46,609 nt of DNA from Clostridia bacterium (GTDB taxonomy: Bacteria > Bacillota > Clostridia > Oscillospirales > Acutalibacteraceae): contig JAFTCX010000024.1 in NCBI GenBank assembly GCA_017454485.1, positions 1 through 46,609 on the forward strand. The letters run 5' to 3'. Shown piece after piece: positions 15,635 to 46,465 of the stretch (positions are counted from its first letter, which is position 1; each line of letters starts with the position of its first letter). The notes under the pieces were generated by a model, which saw only the letters and a program-made list of their open reading frames with translations, had not been told where the DNA came from and made no database searches. The translations under genes and the position numbers were made by a program.

Positions 15635-17188
15635 TTATTGCGCGGCGTCTGTTTCCATTTCGGCTTCGCTTTCCTCAAGCTCCTCAATGGCGGCCTTGCG
15701 GCGCTCTTCAAGGTCGGCGAGCATCTGCTCTTTGAATTTGCCGTGAATGTTGAAGAACATGAACGCAATGCCGGTCAGCAATCGCGCGGCGGCGGGTGCC
15801 AGCGCAAAGATGATCCAAAGACCGCGCTGCACGCCGGGGTCGGTGTTCGGAATTGCAATGCCTTCTGCGTCAGTGAGCGCCTGATAGCCGATCCAGGTCA
15901 GCACCATGGATGTCAGCCAGGCGTTGAAGCTGTTGCCGATCTTCATGAAGTAGTTCTGAATGGTCGTCACTATGGCTTCGTTGCGCATACCGGTCTTCCA
16001 TTCGGAATAATCGAACACATCACCGGATAGCACAGCGAGCGCAACGGAGATCACGCGGTTCGGAAGACCGCAGACGGTGAGGGAAAAAGCCATCCAGACC
16101 AGGTGCGCAATTACATTGTCCTGAAACGTGGCGCCAAAGGGATGGTAGCCGATCAGATACATCAGCGTATAGGCAATGCCGCCGAAAAGACCGGCGCCGA
16201 TCATCGTGTTGCGCGCACCGAATTTATGGATGATCTTTGACGAGAGCGGCGTCATGATGTAATTCGGCAGGCCCGTGAATAAGCTGACGATGGTCGCATA
16301 GGAGTATTTGCCGGTGCAGTTGAACCAAAAAAACTTTTCATTGCCCGCGCCGATGGATTTGAAGGAGTTGAAGAAGTTGCCGAGGATGAGGATGAACATC
16401 GGGCGGTTTTTTGCAAGGTGCTTGAACGATTCGAATACGCCGACTTCCTTCATCTCTTCGCGCGACTGCAGCGGGATGCGTTCGCGCATATGTCGGAAGC
16501 CGTAGATGCACGTTGCGGCGCAAAGCAGCACGATCACCCAGGAAAAACCGTTATAAACCGTGCTTTCCGCAACATTGTTGCTGCGTCCGATGTCCAGCAC
16601 GAACGGCAGCGCAGAAATGAGGAATGTGCCGAACAGCCTCGCGAATTCAACTGTTGCAATCGCGGATACGCGTTCATTATAGTTTGGCGTCACATTATAT
16701 TGCATCAGCGTCCACGCGCCGAAATAGCTCATGCCGAGACCTTTGAGAATCGTTGCAAACGTGACCCAGACGATCTTCATGGCAGGGGAGAGCGCCGGTG
16801 CGCTGAAGAGCATAACCGTGCCGATCAGCCACAGTGGAATCGGCAAGATCAGATAGGGCTTGATGCGTCCCCAACGGGTGCGGGTGCGGTCGATGATCAG
16901 ACCGGACAGTGTGTCGTCCAACGCATCATAGATGCTCGCGCCGAGGCTGATGTTGGCGTAGGCGTTCGGTGAAAGGCCGAAAAACTGAATGATGAAAAAC
17001 TGTAAGTTCGCGTTGCAGAATTCATCCAGGTTTTTTTGACCGAACGCGACGGCGCCCATGGCAAATATTTCTTTCGGCGATAAATAGCGATGCTTTCGGA
17101 CGGCGTCATTCTGTCCGGCGGAATCCTCGCTTTGCGCGGGCGGCGCTTGCGTTTTCTCAAGTGCGGCCGTGCCGGTTGTCTCGTCCAT
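15635..17188 (-). CDS. GPH-family sugar:cation symporter (MFS_2)
   Basis: 517-residue membrane transporter of the glycoside-pentoside-hexuronide family, related to MelB. The signature loop DRTRTRWGRIKPYL follows transmembrane helix 2 (residues 100-113), with the acidic DALDD just before it that binds the coupling cation in MelB-type carriers. About twelve hydrophobic segments are visible. The first 35 residues and the last 30 are polar; the C-terminus is Glu-rich and probably cytoplasmic. Start at 17188 behind AGGAGGG. No glycosidase or sugar-metabolism gene is adjacent, so the substrate is unknown. Confidence 0.88.
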   Translation of the reverse strand: MDETTGTAALEKTQAPPAQSEDSAGQNDAVRKHRYLSPKEIFAMGAVAFGQKNLDEFCNANLQFFIIQFFGLSPNAYANISLGASIYDALDDTLSGLIIDRTRTRWGRIKPYLILPIPLWLIGTVMLFSAPALSPAMKIVWVTFATILKGLGMSYFGAWTLMQYNVTPNYNERVSAIATVEFARLFGTFLISALPFVLDIGRSNNVAESTVYNGFSWVIVLLCAATCIYGFRHMRERIPLQSREEMKEVGVFESFKHLAKNRPMFILILGNFFNSFKSIGAGNEKFFWFNCTGKYSYATIVSLFTGLPNYIMTPLSSKIIHKFGARNTMIGAGLFGGIAYTLMYLIGYHPFGATFQDNVIAHLVWMAFSLTVCGLPNRVISVALAVLSGDVFDYSEWKTGMRNEAIVTTIQNYFMKIGNSFNAWLTSMVLTWIGYQALTDAEGIAIPNTDPGVQRGLWIIFALAPAAARLLTGIAFMFFNIHGKFKEQMLADLEERRKAAIEELEESEAEMETDAAQ

Positions 17189-34092: not shown

Positions 34093-34866
34093 ATGAACAC
34101 TGTTACCTTTGCGTTTTCAGGAAAAGGCGGCGTGGGAAAAACATCGCTTTCTGCCGCGTTTATCCGCCTTCTTTGTGAAAGGTTCCCAAACAAGCGGATT
34201 CTTGCCGTCGATGCCGACCCGGCTGTCGGTCTTTCAACCGCGCTTTCCATGGAGCCGCCGATGACGCTGGATGATGTACGGCTGCAAATTGCGCAAAGCA
34301 TTGAAAAAGGGGAGACTGCGGATGCGGTGGCGCTCTTGGGGGAAGCGAAGTTTCATTTGCTCGACTGCGTGCTCGAACGCGGCAACCTTTCCTTCCTTGC
34401 CATCGGACGACCTGAGGCCGCCGGCTGCTATTGCAAGGTCAATGCCTATCTCAAACAGGTGCTCGAGATGATCTCCGGCAACTTTGATTTTGTCGTGATC
34501 GACGGCGAGGCGGGCATTGAGCAGATCAACCGCCGCGTGATGGAACAGGTGGATTGTCTCGTATTGGTCAGTGACTCCAGCAAAAAGGGGATTCAGGTGA
34601 TCCGAACGATCGAACAGGTCGCTTCGCGTCTGGTTGCGTGCCGCACTGCGGGTGTGATCTTCAACCGTACACGACCCGGATTTGACGCGGATGCACTCCA
34701 TGATATCCCGCCGGTGCTTTCAGTCATCGGAGATGACGCTTTGCAGGCACAGTGCGATATGGACGGAGACAGCGTATTCTGTCTGCCTGAAGATTCCGCG
34801 CTTTTAAAAGGCGCAAGCAGGGCACTGGAAACGCTGCTTCAGAGGGTGCACAATGAAACTGTTTGA
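34093..34866 (+). CDS. CooC-like nickel-insertion ATPase
   Basis: 257-residue MinD/CooC-type P-loop ATPase. The deviant Walker A GKGGVGKTS is at residues 10-18 and the Walker B region is VIDGEAGIEQINRR near 142. A C-Y-C metal motif lies at residues 112-114, matching the CxC site at which CooC proteins bind Ni or Zn at the dimer interface. Known CooC proteins insert nickel into carbon monoxide dehydrogenase or acetyl-CoA synthase. No CODH catalytic subunit is nearby, so the client is probably encoded in this operon. The start at 34093 follows GGAGG; the gene overlaps the next by 14 bases. Confidence 0.8.
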   Translation: MNTVTFAFSGKGGVGKTSLSAAFIRLLCERFPNKRILAVDADPAVGLSTALSMEPPMTLDDVRLQIAQSIEKGETADAVALLGEAKFHLLDCVLERGNLSFLAIGRPEAAGCYCKVNAYLKQVLEMISGNFDFVVIDGEAGIEQINRRVMEQVDCLVLVSDSSKKGIQVIRTIEQVASRLVACRTAGVIFNRTRPGFDADALHDIPPVLSVIGDDALQAQCDMDGDSVFCLPEDSALLKGASRALETLLQRVHNETV

Positions 34867-35584
34867 CGATGTGATCGCGCAGATGTTTGCGCTTTTGCCG
34901 AAAACGCCGGATCTTTTCAGTGAATATAAAGAATCGCTTTGTGCGCCGGAGGGTGACAAAAACGCCATTTTGTTTCGCAGCGATATGGCGTTTGAACTCG
35001 GCGGCAGCGGAAAAACGAGTGTAAGCAGCGTTTTGTTCGGCGATTTTCCGGACGGAAAAGATGCGGTTTCGGTCTACGGTAAAGACCTCTGTGAACTTTC
35101 AGCAGACACACCGTTTGCCCATCTGACTTTTGTGCAGCTTAAAGACAGCAGGGAAGAAAATCTGCGATATGAGCAACTGAAAAACATCGGCTTTTGTTTA
35201 TTTCAGCTTTATCCGCAAGGGTATCATATTCGCATTTCACCGTCCGCAGGCAAAGAGCAGGTGCGTGTTGCGAAAACTGCGCTGGCCGCAGATGCGCCGC
35301 TTTCCTTTCTCAACATCGGCTGCAGTCTGATTCACCTGCTGAAAACACAGCCGGAGGTCGCGGCTGTTCAAACGGTATATGTCACAGCAAACGATGTGGA
35401 TTATGCCGCGCTTTCTGCGCTCGCGCGAAGGGCAAAGCAGATCACAGAAGCTGTGAAGCATACGTTGGAAGTCAATTCACTGGATTGCGCGTCCTGTAAA
35501 ATGAAGCCGATCTGCGATGAGGTGGAAGGCTTGCGGGAACTGCATTTCAAAATGGAAAAGGAGAGAAAGCCTTATGAATCATGA
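34853..35584 (+). CDS. Protein resembling the middle domain of acetyl-CoA synthase (CdhC/AcsB)
   Basis: 243-residue soluble protein. MAFELGGSGKTS (residues 45-56) resembles the VEMGGNRTPAFEL segment of acetyl-CoA synthase. The run GYHIRISPSAGKEQVRVAKT, then alternating hydrophobics to VQTVYVTA, resembles the RNINWLRVSKDA to VQVTIFTD part of the same domain. It ends with C-x2-C-x5-C at residues 212, 215 and 221. The N-terminal domain and the A-cluster C-terminal domain of the synthase are absent, so it is not a complete enzyme. The resemblance is judged by eye and is not certain. It starts within the CooC-like gene and its end overlaps the next gene by 11 bases. Confidence 0.55.
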   Translation: MKLFDDVIAQMFALLPKTPDLFSEYKESLCAPEGDKNAILFRSDMAFELGGSGKTSVSSVLFGDFPDGKDAVSVYGKDLCELSADTPFAHLTFVQLKDSREENLRYEQLKNIGFCLFQLYPQGYHIRISPSAGKEQVRVAKTALAADAPLSFLNIGCSLIHLLKTQPEVAAVQTVYVTANDVDYAALSALARRAKQITEAVKHTLEVNSLDCASCKMKPICDEVEGLRELHFKMEKERKPYES

Positions 35585-35789
35585 TGCTTTGCATGAAGAG
35601 ATGACACTTGAGCAGGCGCTTGCGCTGCTGGGCTATATGGCGCATCACAGCGAGCATCACGCGCAGGAGCTGCTTGAAGCATCCCGCGCGCTGCCGGAAA
35701 AGGCGGTTGTATACATCACGGAAGCTGTTGCTTTGCTGACGCAATCGAACGAAAAAATACGCGCGGCGATCAAGGAGGCGGAAGGGTAA
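35574..35789 (+). CDS. Small His-rich helical protein, unknown
   Basis: 71-residue protein that I cannot assign. It appears fully helical and includes a histidine cluster, MAHHSEHHAQE (about residues 21-31), five His within nine residues, which could bind a metal. The ATG at 35574 lies inside the end of the previous gene and follows AAGGAGAG. Its stop codon overlaps the start of cooT (TAATG), so it is tightly coupled in the operon. The position between nickel-related proteins makes a metal-handling role plausible, but this is inference. Confidence 0.7.
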   Translation: MNHDALHEEMTLEQALALLGYMAHHSEHHAQELLEASRALPEKAVVYITEAVALLTQSNEKIRAAIKEAEG

Positions 35790-35977
35790 TGTGTCTTTCA
35801 ACGGTTTATCAAAAAGGGGAAGATGAAAACGTCTTTTTGTGTAAAAATATTGCACGTGTGATTCCGAAGGACGGCGAAGTGGTCTGTTATGATCTGCTCG
35901 GAAACCGAACTGTCGTTCCCGGGAGGATCATGGACATTGATCTGATCGAAAACATCATTCTGATAAGGGGAAACTGA
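35789..35977 (+). CDS. cooT: CooT-family nickel-binding protein
   Basis: 62-residue protein starting MCLSTVY, the hallmark N-terminus (MCLxTVY) of CooT. In Rhodospirillum CooT binds Ni(II) as a small dimer through its Cys2 and supports CODH maturation. The Lon-substrate-like small beta barrel is suggested by alternating strands through to DIDLIENIILIRG. Start and upstream stop overlap as TAATG, so translation is coupled. The activase gene follows after 3 bases. Confidence 0.85.
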   Translation: MCLSTVYQKGEDENVFLCKNIARVIPKDGEVVCYDLLGNRTVVPGRIMDIDLIENIILIRGN

Positions 35978-35980
35978 AAT

Positions 35981-36778
35981 ATGAAATATTTTGGCGGCTG
36001 CGATGTGGGCTCGACCTACACGAAGGCAGTCATTTTGGATGAAAACGGCGGGATCGTCGCTTCCACGATCATGCGCAGCAAGATCAACGCCGAGCAGTCC
36101 TCGCGCCTTGCAATGTCGGACTGCATTTCTCAGGTGGAAGCTTTGTCTTCGCCGGATGATCTTGCATACATCGTCGGCACGGGTTACGGACGAAACCGTG
36201 TGCCGTTTGCGCAGGAAAACGTCTCTGAAATTTCCTGCCATGCAATGGGTGTTCATGTGACCGACCCGACCGTGCAGGCGATCATCGACATCGGCGGGCA
36301 GGACATCAAGGGTATTGCCGTTGCGCCCGACGGCACGGTCAAAAATTTTGCAATGAATGATAAATGCGCCGCCGGAACAGGCCGTTTCTATGAGGCGATG
36401 GCGCGCTCGTTTGAAATGAGTCTGGAAGAATTCTCTTCCCTCTCATTGAAAGCGAAAAATGTCATTCCCATCACAGCACAGTGCACCGTTTTTGCGGAAT
36501 CCGAAGTGATTGCGCTTGTCGGCGAAGGAAAAGCGCCCGAAGAGATTGCTGCAGGCATTCAAATGGCGGTTGCAAAGCGTTGCTTTGTGATGGCAAAAAA
36601 AGCCGGAGCGATCAACCATATCACCCTGTCCGGTGGCTGTGCCAAAAACGAGGGACTGAAAAAAGCGATCGAGAAGGTGCTCAAGATCAAGGTTGTGGAG
36701 CTGAAAACCGATCCGCAGCTCATGGGCGCGCTCGGCGCCGCTGCGTTTGCGCGAAGGAAAGGTGGGGCAGCTTTATGA
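35981..36778 (+). CDS. ASKHA [4Fe-4S] activase, BadF/HgdC family
   Basis: 265-residue ATP-dependent reductase/activator of 2-hydroxyacyl-CoA dehydratase-type enzymes. Phosphate-1 loop DVGSTYTKAVILD (residues 8-20), IDIGGQDIKG near 102-111 and LSGGCAKN near 216 form the ASKHA nucleotide site. Cys129 (DKCAAGTGRF) and Cys168 (AQCTVFAESE) are the cluster ligands of a homodimer-bridging [4Fe-4S] centre, matching HgdC. Such proteins inject one electron at very low potential into their partner using ATP. It lies directly before the two dehydratase-family genes; the stop overlaps the next start (ATGA). Confidence 0.92.
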   Translation: MKYFGGCDVGSTYTKAVILDENGGIVASTIMRSKINAEQSSRLAMSDCISQVEALSSPDDLAYIVGTGYGRNRVPFAQENVSEISCHAMGVHVTDPTVQAIIDIGGQDIKGIAVAPDGTVKNFAMNDKCAAGTGRFYEAMARSFEMSLEEFSSLSLKAKNVIPITAQCTVFAESEVIALVGEGKAPEEIAAGIQMAVAKRCFVMAKKAGAINHITLSGGCAKNEGLKKAIEKVLKIKVVELKTDPQLMGALGAAAFARRKGGAAL

Positions 36779-37968
36779 AGGATTTAAAACACCGTGTATT
36801 GTTTGAGCATTTGCTCAGTGATGTAAAAAACGAACTTGTGACGCAAGCGCTTGACGAAGGTAAAAAAGCACTCGGCTATTCCTGCTATTTTGTGCCGGAA
36901 GTGCTGATGAATCTTGACGGCTGCTTTTCAGTGCGCCTGCGCGCGCCCGGCATCGCCGACACTTCGATTGCGACCTATTATATGTCCGAAAAAACCTGCA
37001 TGTATTCGCGCAGCATCCTTGAACGCGCCATTGAAGGCGGTTATAATTTTTGTTCTGCTCTGCTGAGTACGGAGACGTGCGGCATGATGCATCGCGCCCA
37101 CGAGCACTTTGAAATGCTGGGGCTTGTGAAAGATGAAAACGAACGCTTTTTCGTGTCACACATAGATGCGCCGTTTGTGACGAAAGATTATGCCGTTCAG
37201 CATTACGAGCGGCAGCTCAAAAAGCATATGCTCGACCGGCTGCACGATGTTTACGGTGTGGATGTGTCCGAAGAAGCATTGCGCAGGGCGATCGAAAAAC
37301 ATAACGAGCTTTGCCGCGTTGTGACCGAGATCGGTGCGTTCCGCAAACAGCAGAATCCGCCTTTGACGGGCTATGAGTTCCATCTCATCGAGCTTGTGAG
37401 CGAATGCTGTCCGCACGAGCTGATTCTGCCATATTTGAAAGAGACGCTGGAAGAGCTGAAAACACGCAAGGCGGATGCGTCGCCATGGTACCGTGTGCGC
37501 GTGGTACTGGCCGGCGGTGAAAACGACGACCCCGATTTCACAAAGCTGATCGAGGATTGCGGCGCGTTTGTTGTGGCAGACCGCTATTGCTTCGGCTCGC
37601 TGCCCGGCAGAGAAGAAATCAAGATTCGCGACGGTGAAACGGCGCTTTCCGCCATCGCACGCCACTACATCGAAACGAACGAGTGCCCGCGTTTTATGAA
37701 CCCGGAAAAGGTGCACGGAAGAAAGCAATATCTCAAGCAGCTTGCAAAAGATTATCACGCCGACGGACTGATCGTTCAGCAAATGAAGTTCTGCGAATAC
37801 TGGGAATATGAGCGTATGTACTGCCAGCATGTCATGGAGAGTGAATACGGATTGCCGTGCATGGGGATCGAAAAGGAATATATCAACACCTCCACCGGGC
37901 AGTTGCGCACGCGTTTTCAGGCGTTTGTGGAGGCACTTGAGATGAAAAAGCTGCAGCAGGGGGTGTGA
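36775..37968 (+). CDS. 2-hydroxyacyl-CoA dehydratase-family subunit (HgdB-like, first)
   Basis: 397-residue member of the HgdA/HgdB/BadDE/FldBC superfamily, whose members carry an iron-sulfur cluster between three-cysteine domains. It has several candidate ligand cysteines: SEKTCMYSRS and STETCGMMHR near 85-105, ADRYCFGSLPG near 280, and MKFCEYWEYER near 340. The domain order matches the family. The start overlaps the activase stop, and the next gene starts 2 bases after its own stop. Whether it binds a CoA substrate or is a double-cubane-type reductase cannot be told. Confidence 0.85.
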   Translation: MKDLKHRVLFEHLLSDVKNELVTQALDEGKKALGYSCYFVPEVLMNLDGCFSVRLRAPGIADTSIATYYMSEKTCMYSRSILERAIEGGYNFCSALLSTETCGMMHRAHEHFEMLGLVKDENERFFVSHIDAPFVTKDYAVQHYERQLKKHMLDRLHDVYGVDVSEEALRRAIEKHNELCRVVTEIGAFRKQQNPPLTGYEFHLIELVSECCPHELILPYLKETLEELKTRKADASPWYRVRVVLAGGENDDPDFTKLIEDCGAFVVADRYCFGSLPGREEIKIRDGETALSAIARHYIETNECPRFMNPEKVHGRKQYLKQLAKDYHADGLIVQQMKFCEYWEYERMYCQHVMESEYGLPCMGIEKEYINTSTGQLRTRFQAFVEALEMKKLQQGV

Positions 37969-37970
37969 GC

Positions 37971-39509
37971 ATGGCAAAGAAACAAGATCGCGGAACGAGA
38001 AATCGGTTTTATGACGGCTATGAATTGGCGCGCTGGCGCAAGTGGAAGGGCTTTAAGGATTCCTGGGTGGATTTCCGCGAATGGCTGACCGAAAAAAAGA
38101 TCAGCGGCGAACTGCTGAAAGCGGACCCGGTGCGCGCATTCAAGGCGCTGACCTATTATCACTGGATGGCGCCGTATCTCGGCAGCGGCAGCATGGTGGA
38201 TCGCACGATCGATGACGCGCACGGTGAGGCGCTTTTGATTGCGCACAAGTATATGCAGTTTTTGCTCAAGAGCAATGTGGACGCGCTTGTAAAAATCCTC
38301 AAAGCGGATGAACGCTTCGGCAAAAACGAGAACGCGAAGAAAATGGTCATCTTTGAGCAGGACGCGTCACCCATTCTCATCGGCGGTTTTCCGAATCTGA
38401 CAAACGCGGTGGAAGAGCCTTATTTCGGCATTCTTGCCACAGCGAACGATCAGCACGCCGGTCATTATTTTACCGATATCATTGATTCCTACGGTCTTCC
38501 GTCCGATTCCTGCCGGAATTCTTCTGTCGTTTGCGGCGTGGCGATCGACGACCAACTGCCGTATTACGGCGCTTGCCTGATCACGAGCAACGCACCGTGT
38601 GATTCGTCTGTGATGAATTCCTCCGTGGTGGAGCGCAGGCTGAAGGTGCCGTCCATTCAGGGCTGCACCCCGATGCGCTGGAAAGATGAGGACACGCGTG
38701 AATACGCGATTGCCCACGTCAAAGAGGTCATAAAATTCATTGAGGACTGTACAGGCGAGACCTTTGACTGGGATGCTTTTATGAAGACAGTGCGCCAATA
38801 TAATGAAGAGACGCGGATTCAGCATGAGCTCTGGGAGCTTGCAAAATCGCCCTATTATCCTGTGCCGAGCGTTCCGAATCTGCTGTATCGCTCCTTCCAG
38901 CTATCATTTTCCAGCGGCTTGAACGAAAACTGTGCGAAAATCGGACGCGAGATGCTGAAAATCTGCGAGAAGTGTGTGAAGGAAAAGATCAACGTGCGAC
39001 CGAAGACCCGCCACCGTACCCTCGTCTGCGGTGCGCCATCGTCGTATTATATGCACTTTTCCACCTGGATGTATGAATGCTGGGGCGTCAATACCGTGGC
39101 GGTGCTCAATAATATGTCGCACCATGAGTTTATCTGTGAAGACGACCGCGAAGAAGCGCTTTGGGGTGTTGCGCAGCTTTGGGAGCAAGCGATCATGCGC
39201 CGGCATCTTGTGGGCGGCTATGAAAACATGCTTGAGCTGTTTGAAGAATACGAGCGTTTCAACTGCGATATGATCGTTTATTACGACGATATCACCTGCA
39301 AAGGCAGCAAGTCAATGACCGGTATGATCCAGGATATCGCCAACGAACGCGGCATACCGCTGGTTTGGATCGCACACGATCTGATCGACCCGCGCGCCAT
39401 TTCACGCAACGAGATGCGCAAACAGTTCAACGATTTCATGTTCACCGTCATGGGCGAAGAACCGCTGGATGCGTCGCTGCTCGACTTTGACGATTCCAAG
39501 GGCTGGTAA
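37971..39509 (+). CDS. 2-hydroxyacyl-CoA dehydratase-family subunit (second, larger)
   Basis: 512-residue member of the same superfamily, longer than the usual 380-480. The N-terminal 130 residues are a helical extension rich in Lys, Arg and Trp. The core includes SCRNSSVVCGVAIDD, LITSNAPCDSS and IQGCTPMRW with possible cluster cysteines, and later LVCGAPSSYY and IVYYDDITCKGSKS. Together with the preceding gene it would form a heterodimer activated by the ASKHA protein. ATG at 37971 is chosen over GTG at 37965 because AGGGGG lies 8 bases before it. Confidence 0.82.
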   Translation: MAKKQDRGTRNRFYDGYELARWRKWKGFKDSWVDFREWLTEKKISGELLKADPVRAFKALTYYHWMAPYLGSGSMVDRTIDDAHGEALLIAHKYMQFLLKSNVDALVKILKADERFGKNENAKKMVIFEQDASPILIGGFPNLTNAVEEPYFGILATANDQHAGHYFTDIIDSYGLPSDSCRNSSVVCGVAIDDQLPYYGACLITSNAPCDSSVMNSSVVERRLKVPSIQGCTPMRWKDEDTREYAIAHVKEVIKFIEDCTGETFDWDAFMKTVRQYNEETRIQHELWELAKSPYYPVPSVPNLLYRSFQLSFSSGLNENCAKIGREMLKICEKCVKEKINVRPKTRHRTLVCGAPSSYYMHFSTWMYECWGVNTVAVLNNMSHHEFICEDDREEALWGVAQLWEQAIMRRHLVGGYENMLELFEEYERFNCDMIVYYDDITCKGSKSMTGMIQDIANERGIPLVWIAHDLIDPRAISRNEMRKQFNDFMFTVMGEEPLDASLLDFDDSKGW

Positions 39510-39520
39510 GGAGAGAGATA

Positions 39521-39700
39521 ATGAAAAAGATTTGTCATTTGCTTTTGATCGCCATCGGCGTTGCGATTGGTGCTGCCGCTGTGGTTTTCGCAGCATTGCA
39601 GGCCGTTTACTGGCTGAATCTCGATAACAAGCTCATGTTTGTGCTGCATCGTATCTTTAACAAGATCACCGACCGTGTGCCGAGAGATCGCAGATTCTGA
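39521..39700 (+). CDS. Small membrane protein ending the metallo-operon
   Basis: 59-residue protein beginning MKKICHLLLIAIGVAIGAAA. It has one transmembrane helix (about residues 6-30) and a short basic C-terminal tail ending RDRRF. GGAGAG lies 6 bases before the ATG. It starts 11 bases after the second dehydratase-family gene and is followed by a strong terminator, so it belongs to the operon. No homologue is recognised. It might anchor a partner at the membrane. Confidence 0.65.
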   Translation: MKKICHLLLIAIGVAIGAAAVVFAALQAVYWLNLDNKLMFVLHRIFNKITDRVPRDRRF

Positions 39701-39710
39701 AAAATCAAAG

Positions 39711-39757
39711 AAAGCTGACAGAGGAACGCTTTTTCGCGGTTCTCTGTCAGCTCTTTT
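39711..39757. terminator. Convergent terminator of the metallo-operon and the HMA gene
   Basis: A 14-bp stem with one bulge (AGCTGACAGAG...GAAC with GTTC...TCTGTCAGCT, about 39713-39727/39739-39752), followed by CTTTT on the plus strand and TTTCTTTG on the minus strand. Confidence 0.85.
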
Positions 39758-40010
39758 ACTTTCTGTGAAACAGTGATTTCTTTTCGTATGGTTCGCATTG
39801 CATGGATAAAAATGTATATCCCGTTGCGTTGATCGCGTTTTTCAGCATCTCCTCTGACGGCGTTTCCTCACTCAAAAAAGATGCGTTGCCTTTGCTGTGG
39901 GATGCTGAAACTTTTTTTGCGTTCGGAAAAAGGTTTCGAATCGTGTCGCAGATATGTGCTTCACACATTCCGCACATCATGCCTTCAATTTGAACTGTTG
40001 TTTTTGTCAT
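39756..40010 (-). CDS. Heavy-metal-associated (HMA) domain protein
   Basis: 84-residue ferredoxin-like metal-binding protein. The motif GMMCGMCEAHI (residues 10-20) carries the CxxC metal site of copper/zinc chaperones and P-type ATPase N-domains. It reads as a free HMA domain with a slightly extended C-terminus; no copper ATPase lies nearby. The start at 40010 follows AGGAGGG. The convergent nickel-type operon on the other side may be coincidental. Confidence 0.82.
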   Translation of the reverse strand: MTKTTVQIEGMMCGMCEAHICDTIRNLFPNAKKVSASHSKGNASFLSEETPSEEMLKNAINATGYTFLSMQCEPYEKKSLFHRK

Positions 40011-40570: not shown

Positions 40571-40647
40571 TGGTAGAGGCAGGGGGACTCGAACCCTCGA
40601 CCTCTGCGATGTGAACGCAGCGCTCTAACCAACTGGGCTATACCTCC
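40571..40647 (-). tRNA. tRNA-Val (anticodon CAC)
   Basis: Cloverleaf readable on the minus strand: acceptor GGAGGTA with TGCCTCT, anticodon stem CTGCG/CGCAG enclosing the loop TTCACAT (anticodon CAC), and GGTTCGAGTCC in the T arm. The CCA end is genome-encoded (40571-40573). Decodes GUG. Confidence 0.95.
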
Positions 40648-43042: not shown

Positions 43043-46000
43043 ATGAAAAAAAACATTCGCTATTTTCTGCAGATCGCAGCAGTGCTTGTTTTACTTGTCA
43101 CGCTTGCTGCATTTTCCGCCTCTGCCGCAGATGACACCGGAAAATGGATCACGGCCTGGGGAACAGGCTCTACGAACATTTCCCTGAACGGTTATGAAAA
43201 CATCACCGCTTACATCGGAAATATCACCGCACGCACGGTGATCACGCCGACAGCAAGCGGCAACAAGATCCGCGTTCGGTTGTCCAACCATTTCGGTGAA
43301 AGCAATCTGACGATTGAATCCTGCACGGTCGCAAAGAGCGTTTCCGGTTCCCGTATTGATACGGATTCCGTGCGTATCATTACGTTTGACAGCTCTCCCA
43401 AAGTGACGATCGGCCCTGGACAGGAAGTCCTTTCAGATCCCGTGGCGTTCAATGTTGTTGCCCAGCAAGACATTGCGATCAGCGTGTTCCTGAAGGATTT
43501 TTCCGAAGTGAAAACCATGGGCCTTTCCGGCGGCGAAACGTATTTGAAATTGGGCGAAGAGGATAATACCCGCACAGACACTTTCGGCTTGTTGGAAGCA
43601 AATCTGGATGAGGAAATCTATAAGGTCTTTCAGGATGCCGGATTAGGGATGGATATGCCGCTGTCATACAGCATCATTCATGTTGTTCCGATTTTTTCAA
43701 GTGTCGATGTTTTTTCCACAAACCCGGACGCCTATTCGGTTGTTGTTGTCGGCGATTCCACAGTTTCCAATGATTTTCCGCAGTATTTGAGCGAGATGAT
43801 CACGAACGACAACATCACCGACGTCGGTGTGGTCGGCAAAGGCATCATCGGAAATCAGCTCGGCAGCGACGGCCTCGGCTTTGCTTCGTTTATCAAAGGC
43901 GAATCTATGCTCAAGCGTTTTCAGCGTGACGTGCTCAGCCAGTCCGGCGTGAAATATGTCATCATCAAAATCGGCACCAACGATATTGTGCACCCGGTCT
44001 GTAAGGACATTCAGGAGGAATATCCCGGCATCAAGCAGCCGACTGCAGAGGAGATCATTGAGAATTTCCGAACGGCGTTTCGCTTGTGTCACGATAATAA
44101 TTTGCGAGTGATCGCCATCGGAATCACGCAATGGAAGGGTTACACCAGAAACTTTTTGAATACCGGCGCGCGCTATGTGCGCACGGAAGAAGAGCGCCAT
44201 GCCGACTGGGAGATCGCGCTCAAAGTCAACGACTGGCTTGCAACGACCACAGAGCACGACGGCTATGTGGATTTCAACGAGCTGACGAAGAATCCCGACG
44301 ATCCCGAAGCCATGCGTCCCGAATATACGCTTGACGGTGCGCATCCGACAGATCTGATGCAGAAGGTCTGGGCGCAGAATTTCCCGCTGAGCCTTATCGG
44401 GATCGGCTCTAATGTCGGCTTTGTACGGTTGAACAAAGTCGAGCTCAATATGAAGCTGAATCAATCGGCTGCACTGAATGCAACGATTTTCCCGACAACG
44501 GCGCTCAACAAGACTGTAACATGGTCCACCTCCAACGCGACAGTCGCTTCCGTTGATTCCAACGGCGTTGTACGTGCCGTCGGCCCCGGCAGCTGCACCG
44601 TCACCTGCACGACGCAGGATGGCAACAAATCGGCTTCCTGCCGCATCAACGTCAGCATCCCTGTCGTTGGCGTTTCGCTTGAAAAGAGCGAGCTTCACCT
44701 TTATGCTACCAAAAAAGAACAGCTTGTGGCGCATGTCCAGCCGGAAAACGCAACCGACCAATCTTTGACATGGCGCAGCTCCGACACAAGAAAGGTCGTT
44801 GTGGATGAAAAAACCGGCGTTGTGACTGCGGTCGGCTCCGGCAGAGCAACGGTGACTTGCAGTACAAACGACGGCGGATACAAAGCATCCTGCGTTGTGG
44901 AAGTGTTCAAAAAAGTTGAGGTTGAATCGCTGACATTGAGCGTGACAAGCAAAAACATCTATGTTGATAAATCTTTCAAGCTCGGTTATACCATCGCACC
45001 GACAACGGCGACGTTCAAGGAAGTGACATGTAAATCAAGCAACACAAAGGTTGCGACGGTGGACAGCAGCGGTGTTGTGACCGGCGTCGGCGTAGGCACG
45101 GCATATATCACCTGCACGTCTGATGATAATCCGTTTGCAGCGCAGCGCTGCAAGGTGGGCGTCTCTGTGCCGGTCGGCGGAGTATCTCTCGATAAAAATG
45201 AACTTTCGCTTTATGAAACGGCAACGGCGCTTCTGACAGCGGTTGTTTTGCCAAACAACGCTACAAATAAAAAAGTGATCTGGTCGTCCAGCGACACCTC
45301 GGTCGCAACGGTCAATTCAAAAGGCCTTGTTCGCGCTGTAAAGGCCGGCAACTGCGTGATTACCTGCACAACGAAGAACCGAAATAAAACGGCAATGTGC
45401 AAGGTGCACGTGGAAAAAACAATTCTTTCCACTTCTGTCCGGCTCGATCAGCGGACGCTGACGCTGCGCGACGGCAAGAGCGCAACCCTGGCTGCCACGA
45501 TCAAGCCGAACAATGTGTCGATCAATTCCGTTTCGTGGACGTCGGATAACCCGAAGGTTGCAACTGTCAACAGTGTCGGCAAGGTGACGGCGAAGGGCCC
45601 CGGCACCTGCACGATCACCTGTGCAACCAAGGATACCGGTAAAACAGCAACTTGCAAAGTGACTGTCAAGGCAACACGCGTGCAGAGCGTTGTGCTCAAT
45701 AAGAGAAGCATGACCGTGACGGCCGGAGATGTTGTGAAGCTGAAAGCAACGATCACGCCGAGCAACGCAACCAATAAAAAGGTGACTTGGGCGTCCAGCA
45801 ATCCGAAGATCGTTAAAGTCAGCCAGAAGGGGAATATCAAGGGTCTGCGTGCAGGCAAAGCGACAATAACCGCGACAACCGCTGACGGCAGGAAGGTTGC
45901 CACCTGTGCCGTTACGGTGAAAGCTTCGAAGATCCGTGCGGTCACAGTTGAGGAATATGACATCACGATCGGTTTGAATGCGAAGTACAAGCTGAAACCG

Positions 46001-46465
46001 ACGGTTCAGCCGTCAACCGCAAACAGCTCTAAGCTGAAGTACTCTTCGAGTGATACACGCATCGCCAAGGTGAATTCCAAAGGCGTGATCACGGGTATTT
46101 CGGAAGGCTCCTGCATCATCACCATTTCTCCGACAGACGGTGGCGGCGGAAAAGCCGCGATGATCGCCGTGAAGGTGGAAAACATTCGCGTGGTTGCAAT
46201 CAAGCTCACTGCGAGCTCGAATGTCTCGATGCTGTTGAACACCGTGACCGCTGCCAAGGGTACAAAGTTCAAACTCACCGCTTCGGTACTTCCTGCCAAT
46301 GCAACCAACAAGAACGTCACATGGAAGACCAGCGACCCCAACGTTGCAAAGGTCGATTCCAAAGGCAACGTGACCTGCGTCGGCACCGGCACCTGCCACA
46401 TCACCTGTGTGAGCACAGAACAAAAGAGTCCGGCCACGGAAATCTGCCGTGTGTTTGTACGGTAA
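43043..46465 (+). CDS. Secreted SGNH hydrolase with eight BIG2 repeats
   Basis: 1140-residue exported protein. A signal peptide (residues 1-29, ending ASA) leads to a beta-sandwich typical of GDSL esterases (RVRLSNHFGE near 78-87). An SGNH domain follows with VVVVGDST (Ser239), KIGTNDIVHP near 308 and DGAHPTD near 429. From about residue 458 to the end there are eight tandem bacterial Ig-like (BIG2) repeats of about 85 residues, recognisable by the recurring V-x-W-x-S-S/T-x-x-x-V-A and G-x-G-x-C-x-I-T-C patterns. There is no LPxTG, SLH or CWBD motif at the end. Probably a surface-exposed carbohydrate or lipid esterase whose repeats extend it from the cell. The substrate is unknown. Confidence 0.88.
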   Translation: MKKNIRYFLQIAAVLVLLVTLAAFSASAADDTGKWITAWGTGSTNISLNGYENITAYIGNITARTVITPTASGNKIRVRLSNHFGESNLTIESCTVAKSVSGSRIDTDSVRIITFDSSPKVTIGPGQEVLSDPVAFNVVAQQDIAISVFLKDFSEVKTMGLSGGETYLKLGEEDNTRTDTFGLLEANLDEEIYKVFQDAGLGMDMPLSYSIIHVVPIFSSVDVFSTNPDAYSVVVVGDSTVSNDFPQYLSEMITNDNITDVGVVGKGIIGNQLGSDGLGFASFIKGESMLKRFQRDVLSQSGVKYVIIKIGTNDIVHPVCKDIQEEYPGIKQPTAEEIIENFRTAFRLCHDNNLRVIAIGITQWKGYTRNFLNTGARYVRTEEERHADWEIALKVNDWLATTTEHDGYVDFNELTKNPDDPEAMRPEYTLDGAHPTDLMQKVWAQNFPLSLIGIGSNVGFVRLNKVELNMKLNQSAALNATIFPTTALNKTVTWSTSNATVASVDSNGVVRAVGPGSCTVTCTTQDGNKSASCRINVSIPVVGVSLEKSELHLYATKKEQLVAHVQPENATDQSLTWRSSDTRKVVVDEKTGVVTAVGSGRATVTCSTNDGGYKASCVVEVFKKVEVESLTLSVTSKNIYVDKSFKLGYTIAPTTATFKEVTCKSSNTKVATVDSSGVVTGVGVGTAYITCTSDDNPFAAQRCKVGVSVPVGGVSLDKNELSLYETATALLTAVVLPNNATNKKVIWSSSDTSVATVNSKGLVRAVKAGNCVITCTTKNRNKTAMCKVHVEKTILSTSVRLDQRTLTLRDGKSATLAATIKPNNVSINSVSWTSDNPKVATVNSVGKVTAKGPGTCTITCATKDTGKTATCKVTVKATRVQSVVLNKRSMTVTAGDVVKLKATITPSNATNKKVTWASSNPKIVKVSQKGNIKGLRAGKATITATTADGRKVATCAVTVKASKIRAVTVEEYDITIGLNAKYKLKPTVQPSTANSSKLKYSSSDTRIAKVNSKGVITGISEGSCIITISPTDGGGGKAAMIAVKVENIRVVAIKLTASSNVSMLLNTVTAAKGTKFKLTASVLPANATNKNVTWKTSDPNVAKVDSKGNVTCVGTGTCHITCVSTEQKSPATEICRVFVR

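Follow-up and report, generated by a model that had tools for sequence, protein, structure and literature searches.

Nickel is used by few known enzymes, and the ATP-driven, low-potential reductases and dehydratases form a superfamily whose members contain, to our knowledge, iron-sulfur clusters only. An operon in which genes for nickel maturation are joined to genes of this superfamily was found at positions 34093-39700 of a contig of a Clostridia bacterium (JAFTCX010000024.1, assembly GCA_017454485.1). The window analyzed, 46,609 nucleotides in length, is the whole of this contig (C82) of a 2.4-Mb genome that is 87% complete. The closest described systems are the class I benzoyl-CoA reductases BzdNO and MbdNO, of solved structure, with their activases, the double-cubane protein DCCP with its ATPase, the 2-hydroxyacyl-CoA dehydratases HadBC and HgdAB and, on the nickel side, carbon monoxide dehydrogenase/acetyl-CoA synthase (CODH/ACS) with the proteins CooC, CooT and CooJ. 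C36, C73, C100, C263, C293 and C327 of BzdN hold an [8Fe-9S] double cubane, and C95, C128 and C380 are the ligands in BzdO (PMC11971306). A review links the second cysteine of CooC (114) and Cys2 of CooT to metal binding (PMC6006190).

The eight genes of the operon all lie on the same strand, as seen in the list of open reading frames and in the sequence itself, in the order CooC, g2, g3, CooT, HgdC, HgdB, HgdA and one-helix peptide. Judged from their coordinates they overlap or almost abut, the largest internal gap being 11 bases. An earlier note on this DNA had described such a run of tightly packed genes in one direction, encoding a CooC-like ATPase with a CxC motif, an ACS-like fragment, a His-rich peptide, CooT, an HgdC-type activase with both cluster cysteines, two dehydratase-family subunits and a small membrane protein, with no CODH catalytic subunit. 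The open reading frames and coordinates bear out the layout, and the profile, structure and family matches given below agree with the names. Two of these needed refinement: the ACS-like fragment is indeed related to ACS, but to its central domain only and with a cysteine tail added, and the term His-rich fits the peptide family but is less apt for the copy in the window. The system is real, widespread and apparently undescribed; no description of this gene combination was found in the literature, where coverage of subscription journals was thin, so that its absence is unproven. The undescribed nickel and/or iron-sulfur low-potential enzyme system that the earlier note had proposed is thus supported, its nickel part being suggested by the company in which the genes are found.

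Both PF06050 subunits and the HgdC-type activase of the superfamily are present. HgdC (35981..36778, + strand, 265 amino acids), an ATP-dependent activase, scored 215.8 bits against TIGR00241 (cut-off 125.4) and is nearest to MbdQ (E 1.9e-63); its C129 and C168 are conserved in 96 out of 96 sequences. HgdB (36775..37968, +, 397 amino acids) matched PF06050 with E 8.4e-91. Its residues C37, C75, C102, C272, C304 and C340, found in all 114 aligned rows bar one gap, align with the six double-cubane cysteines of BzdN, and an alignment with DCCP gave the same pattern. HgdA (37971..39509, +, 512 amino acids; PF06050, E 7.2e-37) has C181 and C210 in 121/121 rows and C443 in 119, with two gaps. In the alignment these three residues fall on MbdO and HadB cysteines which we take to be cluster ligands there, and thus mark the ligand positions of an open-site [4Fe-4S] cluster. 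The cluster types and the flow of electrons are predicted from homology, by which a path from the activase through the double cubane to the open-site [4Fe-4S] cluster would be well supported.

The operon nevertheless departs from each of the known systems. Compared with BzdNO and MbdNO, it shares the six positions in HgdB, the three in HgdA and the MbdQ-like activase, but it has a single activase gene, CooC, g2 and CooT are added, and its scores were far under the cut-offs (BzdN 88.5 bits versus 453.8, BzdO 32.4 versus 448.6, BcrC 52.4 versus 421.15). Furthermore, the match of HgdA to solved relatives begins only at about residue 157-175, which leaves a long N-terminal extension, and His131 of BzdO, located three residues after Cys128, corresponds by offset to S213 of HgdA, a Ser in at least 97% of rows. 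With DCCP the operon has the six-cysteine double-cubane pattern and an ATP-driven activase in common, whereas DCCP has one subunit and the operon two different ones together with a nickel kit; the family of double-cubane anaerobic reductases (NF040772, cut-off 350) was matched with 143.3 bits by HgdB and 43 by HgdA. The dehydratases likewise consist of two PF06050 subunits with an activase, but scores were far below their families (HadB 30.9 bits versus 750, HadC 84.4 versus 700), HgdB has six cluster cysteines and there is no CoA-transferase gene in the operon. The large subunits therefore do not group with a known dehydratase of defined substrate, which the earlier note had regarded as a way in which its reading might fail. 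The system is predicted to resemble HadBC, the benzoyl-CoA reductases and the double-cubane reductase in its working, and falls under none of their curated families.

Conservation was analyzed for a core set of five genes, CooC, g2, HgdC, HgdB and HgdA, with CooT and g3 as extras. A first survey, by a scan of GTDB contigs, took the best 80 of 171 relatives, kept as 79 loci; these belong mostly to Clostridia metagenome-assembled genomes, many with titles that name ruminant or other animal gut sites, and a few labelled otherwise (Vallitalea, Spirochaetaceae). A second survey covered the family of locus L114 (labelled Lachnospiraceae) and yielded 40 loci, several per genome and two of them overlapping. 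All five core genes were found in 61/79 loci of the first survey and 24/40 of the second, and among interior loci, defined by a distance of over 5.5 kb between HgdA and either end of the locus, in 36/39 and 22/28, respectively. The three exceptions in the first survey comprise L110, which has g2 in place, and L109 and L122, whose genomes have g2 elsewhere. The six in the second include four lone hgdB-hgdA pairs, and g2 was found elsewhere in all six genomes. Pairs of hgdB and hgdA with no activase or CooC in the examined stretch, and with g2 elsewhere in the genome, occur at L161, L165, L166, L183 and L190; the lone pairs are possibly paralogous enzymes with other substrates. About 15 gene arrangements were seen over both surveys, that of the window being one of them. 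Because the gene set is retained despite this rearrangement, it behaves as a functional unit. The conservation in other Clostridia anticipated in the earlier note was hence confirmed for the set, gene order being variable, and the homologues are not scattered, unrelated neighbours.

The distribution of g2 follows that of HgdA. HgdA was matched in 31/397 genomes of the L114 family and in 20 of the 98 genomes of relatives of the window, namely 16 of the 34 congeneric ones, a single one from the same family, and three in which the matches were weak and were to ordinary relatives (18-21% identity). Among 391 genomes of the class, HgdA occurs in 7 and g2 matches above 140 bits in exactly those 7 (Fisher p 4e-15, kinship ignored); two further weak g2 matches in these genomes sit in frames of 537 and 716 residues and are probably true ACS. 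In another comparison g2 was present in 33/34 HgdA-positive genomes, the miss being G478, and in 0/20 HgdA-negative ones. Chance neighbourhood is ruled out by the conserved set together with this co-occurrence.

Several genomes harbour two or three HgdA copies. Within the genus two types were distinguished, type A being 77-96% identical to HgdA of the window and type B about 37%; their gene orders differ and their five genes are the same. Three cases (G002, G015 and L053) allowed a comparison of A and B clusters, and in them the A-type hgdC was lost or split and the B-type kept: it is absent in L030 (of G002) and L053, and split between frames in L029 (of G015). G022 also holds both types, and its A contig stops before hgdC. 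While A and B HgdA share about 37% identity, the activases of the two types are 75-79% identical. This likeness and the loss or splitting of the A-type hgdC suggest that one activase may serve both enzymes. The presence of several HgdBA pairs per genome suggests a family of unassigned reactions.

On the nickel side, the first gene encodes a CooC-type nickel ATPase of 257 amino acids (34093..34866, +) that has both the P-loop (GKGGVGKT) and the metal-binding C-x-C. The nearest solved relative is CooC 3kje (E 1.4e-12), with the Cys-Tyr-Cys motif in register, and C112 and C114 were invariant in 97/97 family members. In a tree of 25 operon CooC proteins, sampled as every fourth one of the set plus the window copy, and four CooC from CODH clusters, the operon CooC group apart, albeit weakly and with long branches. 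CooT (35789..35977, +, 62 amino acids) matched PF10133 with 60.1 bits (cut-off 27; E 2.6e-16), and Cys2 is present in 29/29 rows having a residue there, one row showing a gap. The g3 protein (35574..35789, +, 71 amino acids) contains 6 His and matched no Pfam or NCBIfam family; its 18 homologues contain 3-13 His, often as an N-terminal run. It recurs together with CooT in several separate arrangements and, being small and His-containing like CooJ, is a possible nickel carrier. Nickel roles are predicted for CooC and CooT in this operon, as their nickel residues are those of the proteins accompanying CODH/ACS. No other expected target of these chaperones turned up in the window's genus, where CODH was found in 0/34 genomes, NiFe hydrogenase in 0/23 and no CdhC match was longer than g2, urease and lactate racemase not having been searched for; of 17 carriers outside the genus, one gave a clear NiFe hydrogenase match and four gave short partial ones.

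The second gene, g2 (34853..35584, +, 243 amino acids), encodes a stand-alone ACS/CdhC central-domain protein. A profile of 17 g2 homologues matched residues 335-487 of the solved Moorella ACS (E 1.1e-6), as well as a truncated ACS (E 4.7e-7) and another ACS (E 3.5e-4). The predicted structure (pLDDT 83) is in agreement with this, since all 21 fold matches of the model at E<=0.001 were ACS or CODH/ACS chains. PF03598 (cut-off 24) was not matched by g2 of the window, while eight homologues from the genus scored 24.8-39.5 bits. The match to ACS stops before the A-cluster cysteines (C-G-C motif), and in the Pfam search g2 did not match PF19436, which is matched by the true ACS of L209 and L210. 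Instead, g2 ends in a C-x2-C-x5-C motif, of which C212, C215 and C221 are conserved in 91/91 sequences. The invariant R138 corresponds, by position in the profile alignment, to residue 429 of ACS, in a region presumed by us to bind CoA, for which literature look-ups gave no confirmation. With the central domain alone matching, g2 as a full acetyl-CoA synthase is ruled out. Thus, the operon shares the ACS central domain with CODH/ACS, but has neither a CODH catalytic subunit (Pfam) nor an A-cluster domain. A different arrangement was observed in L210 (8295-11834, genome G064), where ACS is fused to a CdhD domain (corrinoid protein delta subunit) in one frame of 1179 residues.

The observed gene set, its conservation and its ligand positions are best explained by an operon for a nickel-matured, ATP-driven, very-low-potential relative of the benzoyl-CoA reductases, dehydratases and double-cubane proteins, a reading to which we assign a probability of roughly 0.55. 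HgdAB would be a two-subunit reductase, or a reductively activated enzyme, equipped with its own nickel-loading kit. HgdC would hydrolyse ATP and pass single electrons at very low potential into the [8Fe-9S] double cubane of HgdB, which would store them and deliver them to the open-site [4Fe-4S] cluster of HgdA, the putative site of substrate reduction. CooC would bring nickel, with the help of CooT and g3 in loci that have them and, in certain relatives, of an adjacent HypA. The cut-down ACS g2 may serve HgdA as a docking partner or scaffold, presenting it with nickel or a CoA moiety, and nickel would most likely reside at or beside the HgdA cluster. Candidate substrates are a CoA thioester or a small molecule. 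Both the dependence on nickel and the role of g2 are suggested by gene company. It is tempting to speculate further, at somewhat under even odds, that HgdAB is the first nickel-containing member of its superfamily, an ATP-driven enzyme with electrons passing from an ultra-low-potential double cubane to a nickel-iron-sulfur site of HgdA, assembled on g2 as an ACS-derived chaperone. If this holds, the enzyme would resemble nitrogenase in its design and CODH in its metal, with paralogues in the family acting on different substrates.

Several observations weigh against a nickel enzyme of this kind. The commonest arrangement, CooC-HgdB-HgdA-HgdC-g2, seen in 57/85 five-gene loci, lacks CooT and g3, so that CooC and g2 make up the entire nickel case there, and ATPases of the CooC type could instead load a different metal or remodel an apo-protein. 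Two further cysteines of HgdA, C370 (119/121 rows) and C202 (112/121), could not be placed relative to the cluster because the HgdA model was poor (pLDDT 62), and their alignment positions may put them away from it. Of the recurrent neighbours inspected, most neighbours not having been searched against Pfam, none was conspicuous as a CoA-transferase or acyl-CoA gene, which is odd for an enzyme acting on CoA esters. Finally, a full CODH/ACS cluster with two CooC genes of its own is present in one carrier (G153). This genome has CODH (602 bits, cut-off 478), two full ACS and genes of the corrinoid-protein and pterin-methyltransferase types. As G153 holds both systems, the operon is not simply a replacement of CODH/ACS.

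An operon that joins a nickel kit to this superfamily, and that is found in dozens of species of anaerobes from the gut and elsewhere, points to low-potential chemistry not yet assigned. It makes concrete the question whether a site-differentiated [4Fe-4S] cluster in this fold can take nickel, and what it would then reduce. It may also offer a possible reason for the occurrence of CooT in proteomes without CODH, which amounted to 26/111 in a survey quoted in PMC6006190.

The strongest competing explanation is a nickel-free radical enzyme, a divergent acyl-CoA dehydratase or reductase for which CooC and g2 were repurposed in iron-sulfur cluster assembly, with CooT and g3 as occasional metal buffers. 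The ligand positions of nickel-free relatives are retained and CooT and g3 are missing from most loci, as would be expected in that case; moreover, CooC belongs to the MinD family, whose member NifH serves nitrogenase (PMC6006190). However, the CxC of CooC is kept without exception, CooT (with Cys2) and g3 recur jointly in several arrangements, and HypA is found in 6 loci. The loci of the three ordinary HgdA relatives (L018-L020), 4 kb in length, gave no match to CooC or g2, and we know of no ordinary dehydratase or benzoyl-CoA reductase operon that contains CooC. A nickel-free enzyme is for these reasons considered unlikely, with perhaps one chance in four.

Less probable still is an alternative CO2-to-CO/acetyl-CoA synthase, in which the set would replace CODH/ACS in anaerobes lacking it and g2 would be an ACS remnant. 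Such an enzyme would explain the case of 'Ca. Galacturonibacter soehngenii', whose acetogenic enrichments displayed CO dehydrogenase activity and incorporation of CO2 into the carboxyl group of acetate, although no CODH/ACS genes were found in the dominant genome (PMC7000372). The set occurs in the L114 family, which bears the label Lachnospiraceae, the family to which PMC7000372 assigns Galacturonibacter. The nickel kit and the ACS domain would also fit, as would the scarcity of CODH. CODH exceeded the cut-off in 0/34 genomes of the window's genus, its own included, and in none of 30 carriers chosen from the 79 loci (one weak match), five of which are common to the 34. However, CODH is rare in these lineages anyway, exceeding the cut-off in 1/59 genomes, so that its absence says little, and g2 lacks the A-cluster domain. 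G153 moreover has CODH, full ACS and corrinoid-protein genes besides the set. A strong match to the corrinoid iron-sulfur protein was obtained in only one of 29 carriers, again G153 (256.9 bits); in G189, G280, G001 and G434 the matches were partial, lay in frames some 800 residues long and were no more than 2.4 bits above the cut-off (24.8), and these were taken as other pterin-binding proteins. Formyl-tetrahydrofolate synthetase was present in 39/40 genomes, carriers and non-carriers alike, and being near-universal makes the methyl branch uninformative as a test of acetogenesis. A simple CODH/ACS substitute is thus weakened both by the carrier having both systems and by the rarity of CODH.

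Highly improbable, and the least favoured of all, is a reactivator in which HgdABC would not be a catabolic enzyme but an ATP-driven electron donor keeping another cofactor, a corrinoid or nickel centre, reduced. ATP-dependent activation of corrinoids is known as a related chemistry (PMC6739815), and a corrinoid-binding protein adjoins one locus (L119). However, none of the recurrent neighbours inspected was conspicuous as a corrinoid protein, the methyltransferase of 11 loci being of the S-adenosylmethionine (SAM) type; the ligand positions retained in HgdA are those of an open-site cluster of the substrate type; and up to three HgdA copies per genome fit different substrates better than one reactivator.

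Neighbouring genes in relatives were grouped, for flavoproteins, by similarity, and one to five members per group were searched against Pfam or NCBIfam. A large NAD(P)H/iron-sulfur flavoprotein of 759-972 amino acids (one frame cut) lies beside the set or a lone pair in nine loci of the second survey. In 6/40 loci of this survey the set is followed by HypA, confirmed by Pfam in all six and located behind this flavoprotein. In these loci (L162, L167, L171, L181, L182 and L185) two putative nickel-linked reductases stand side by side. The putative isoprene reductase operon isr of Acetobacterium consists of an oxidoreductase, two HypA, HypB and a ferredoxin (PMC10134865). The relatives' flavoprotein is similar in size and domains to that oxidoreductase (901 amino acids), a likeness drawn from its description and not from its sequence. 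As far as described there, isr has no HgdABC, CooC or ACS domain, whereas the operon of the window has no flavoprotein or HypA. A flavoprotein of the old-yellow-enzyme type was found near the set in nine loci.

A sigma-54 activator stands ahead of the set in two genomes from another family of the class (L204, 536-6582; L205, 1-5774, there in two frames). Genes for a ferredoxin, an aldehyde ferredoxin oxidoreductase, ThiS and an iron-alcohol dehydrogenase lie between activator and set in L204, and an aldehyde ferredoxin oxidoreductase lies farther upstream in L205. Such neighbours fit an inducible pathway that is fed by low-potential electrons. A few genes from the set in L154 (181-3345), a lactate racemase gene (LarA, nickel-pincer) and two genes resembling electron-transfer flavoprotein subunits, as judged by eye, were noticed. 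An MFS_2 sugar transporter is encoded in the window (15635-17188, -) and a group of similar transporters lies near the set in 10 loci (one checked with Pfam), so that a polysaccharide-degrading setting is possible. The SAM methyltransferase, a helix-turn-helix regulator and the sugar transporter were ruled out as core members by their patchy occurrence. A functional link to the GH125 and SGNH genes upstream of the operon was also rejected, as neither was matched in 20 stretches from relatives, some of these stretches being short.

The last gene of the operon (39521..39700, +) encodes a one-helix membrane peptide of 59 amino acids with a single hydrophobic stretch, which recurs in the family (A and some B types; clusters c4, c11 and c17). 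It is followed by a hairpin and CTTTT (39713..39752, +), probably a terminator that separates the operon from a convergent gene. The strong terminator claimed in the earlier note is backed by the folding energy of an 81-base stretch around the hairpin (-30.2 kcal/mol, z -4.5, equalled in 0/200 shuffles), but a simple terminator scan did not list it. The convergent gene encodes a small heavy-metal-associated (CopZ-like) protein (39756-40010, -). Farther downstream a tRNA gene (40574-40647, -; Rfam) and a gene for a protein of 1140 residues with a GDSL lipase domain and eight bacterial Ig-like stretches (43043-46465, +) were identified.

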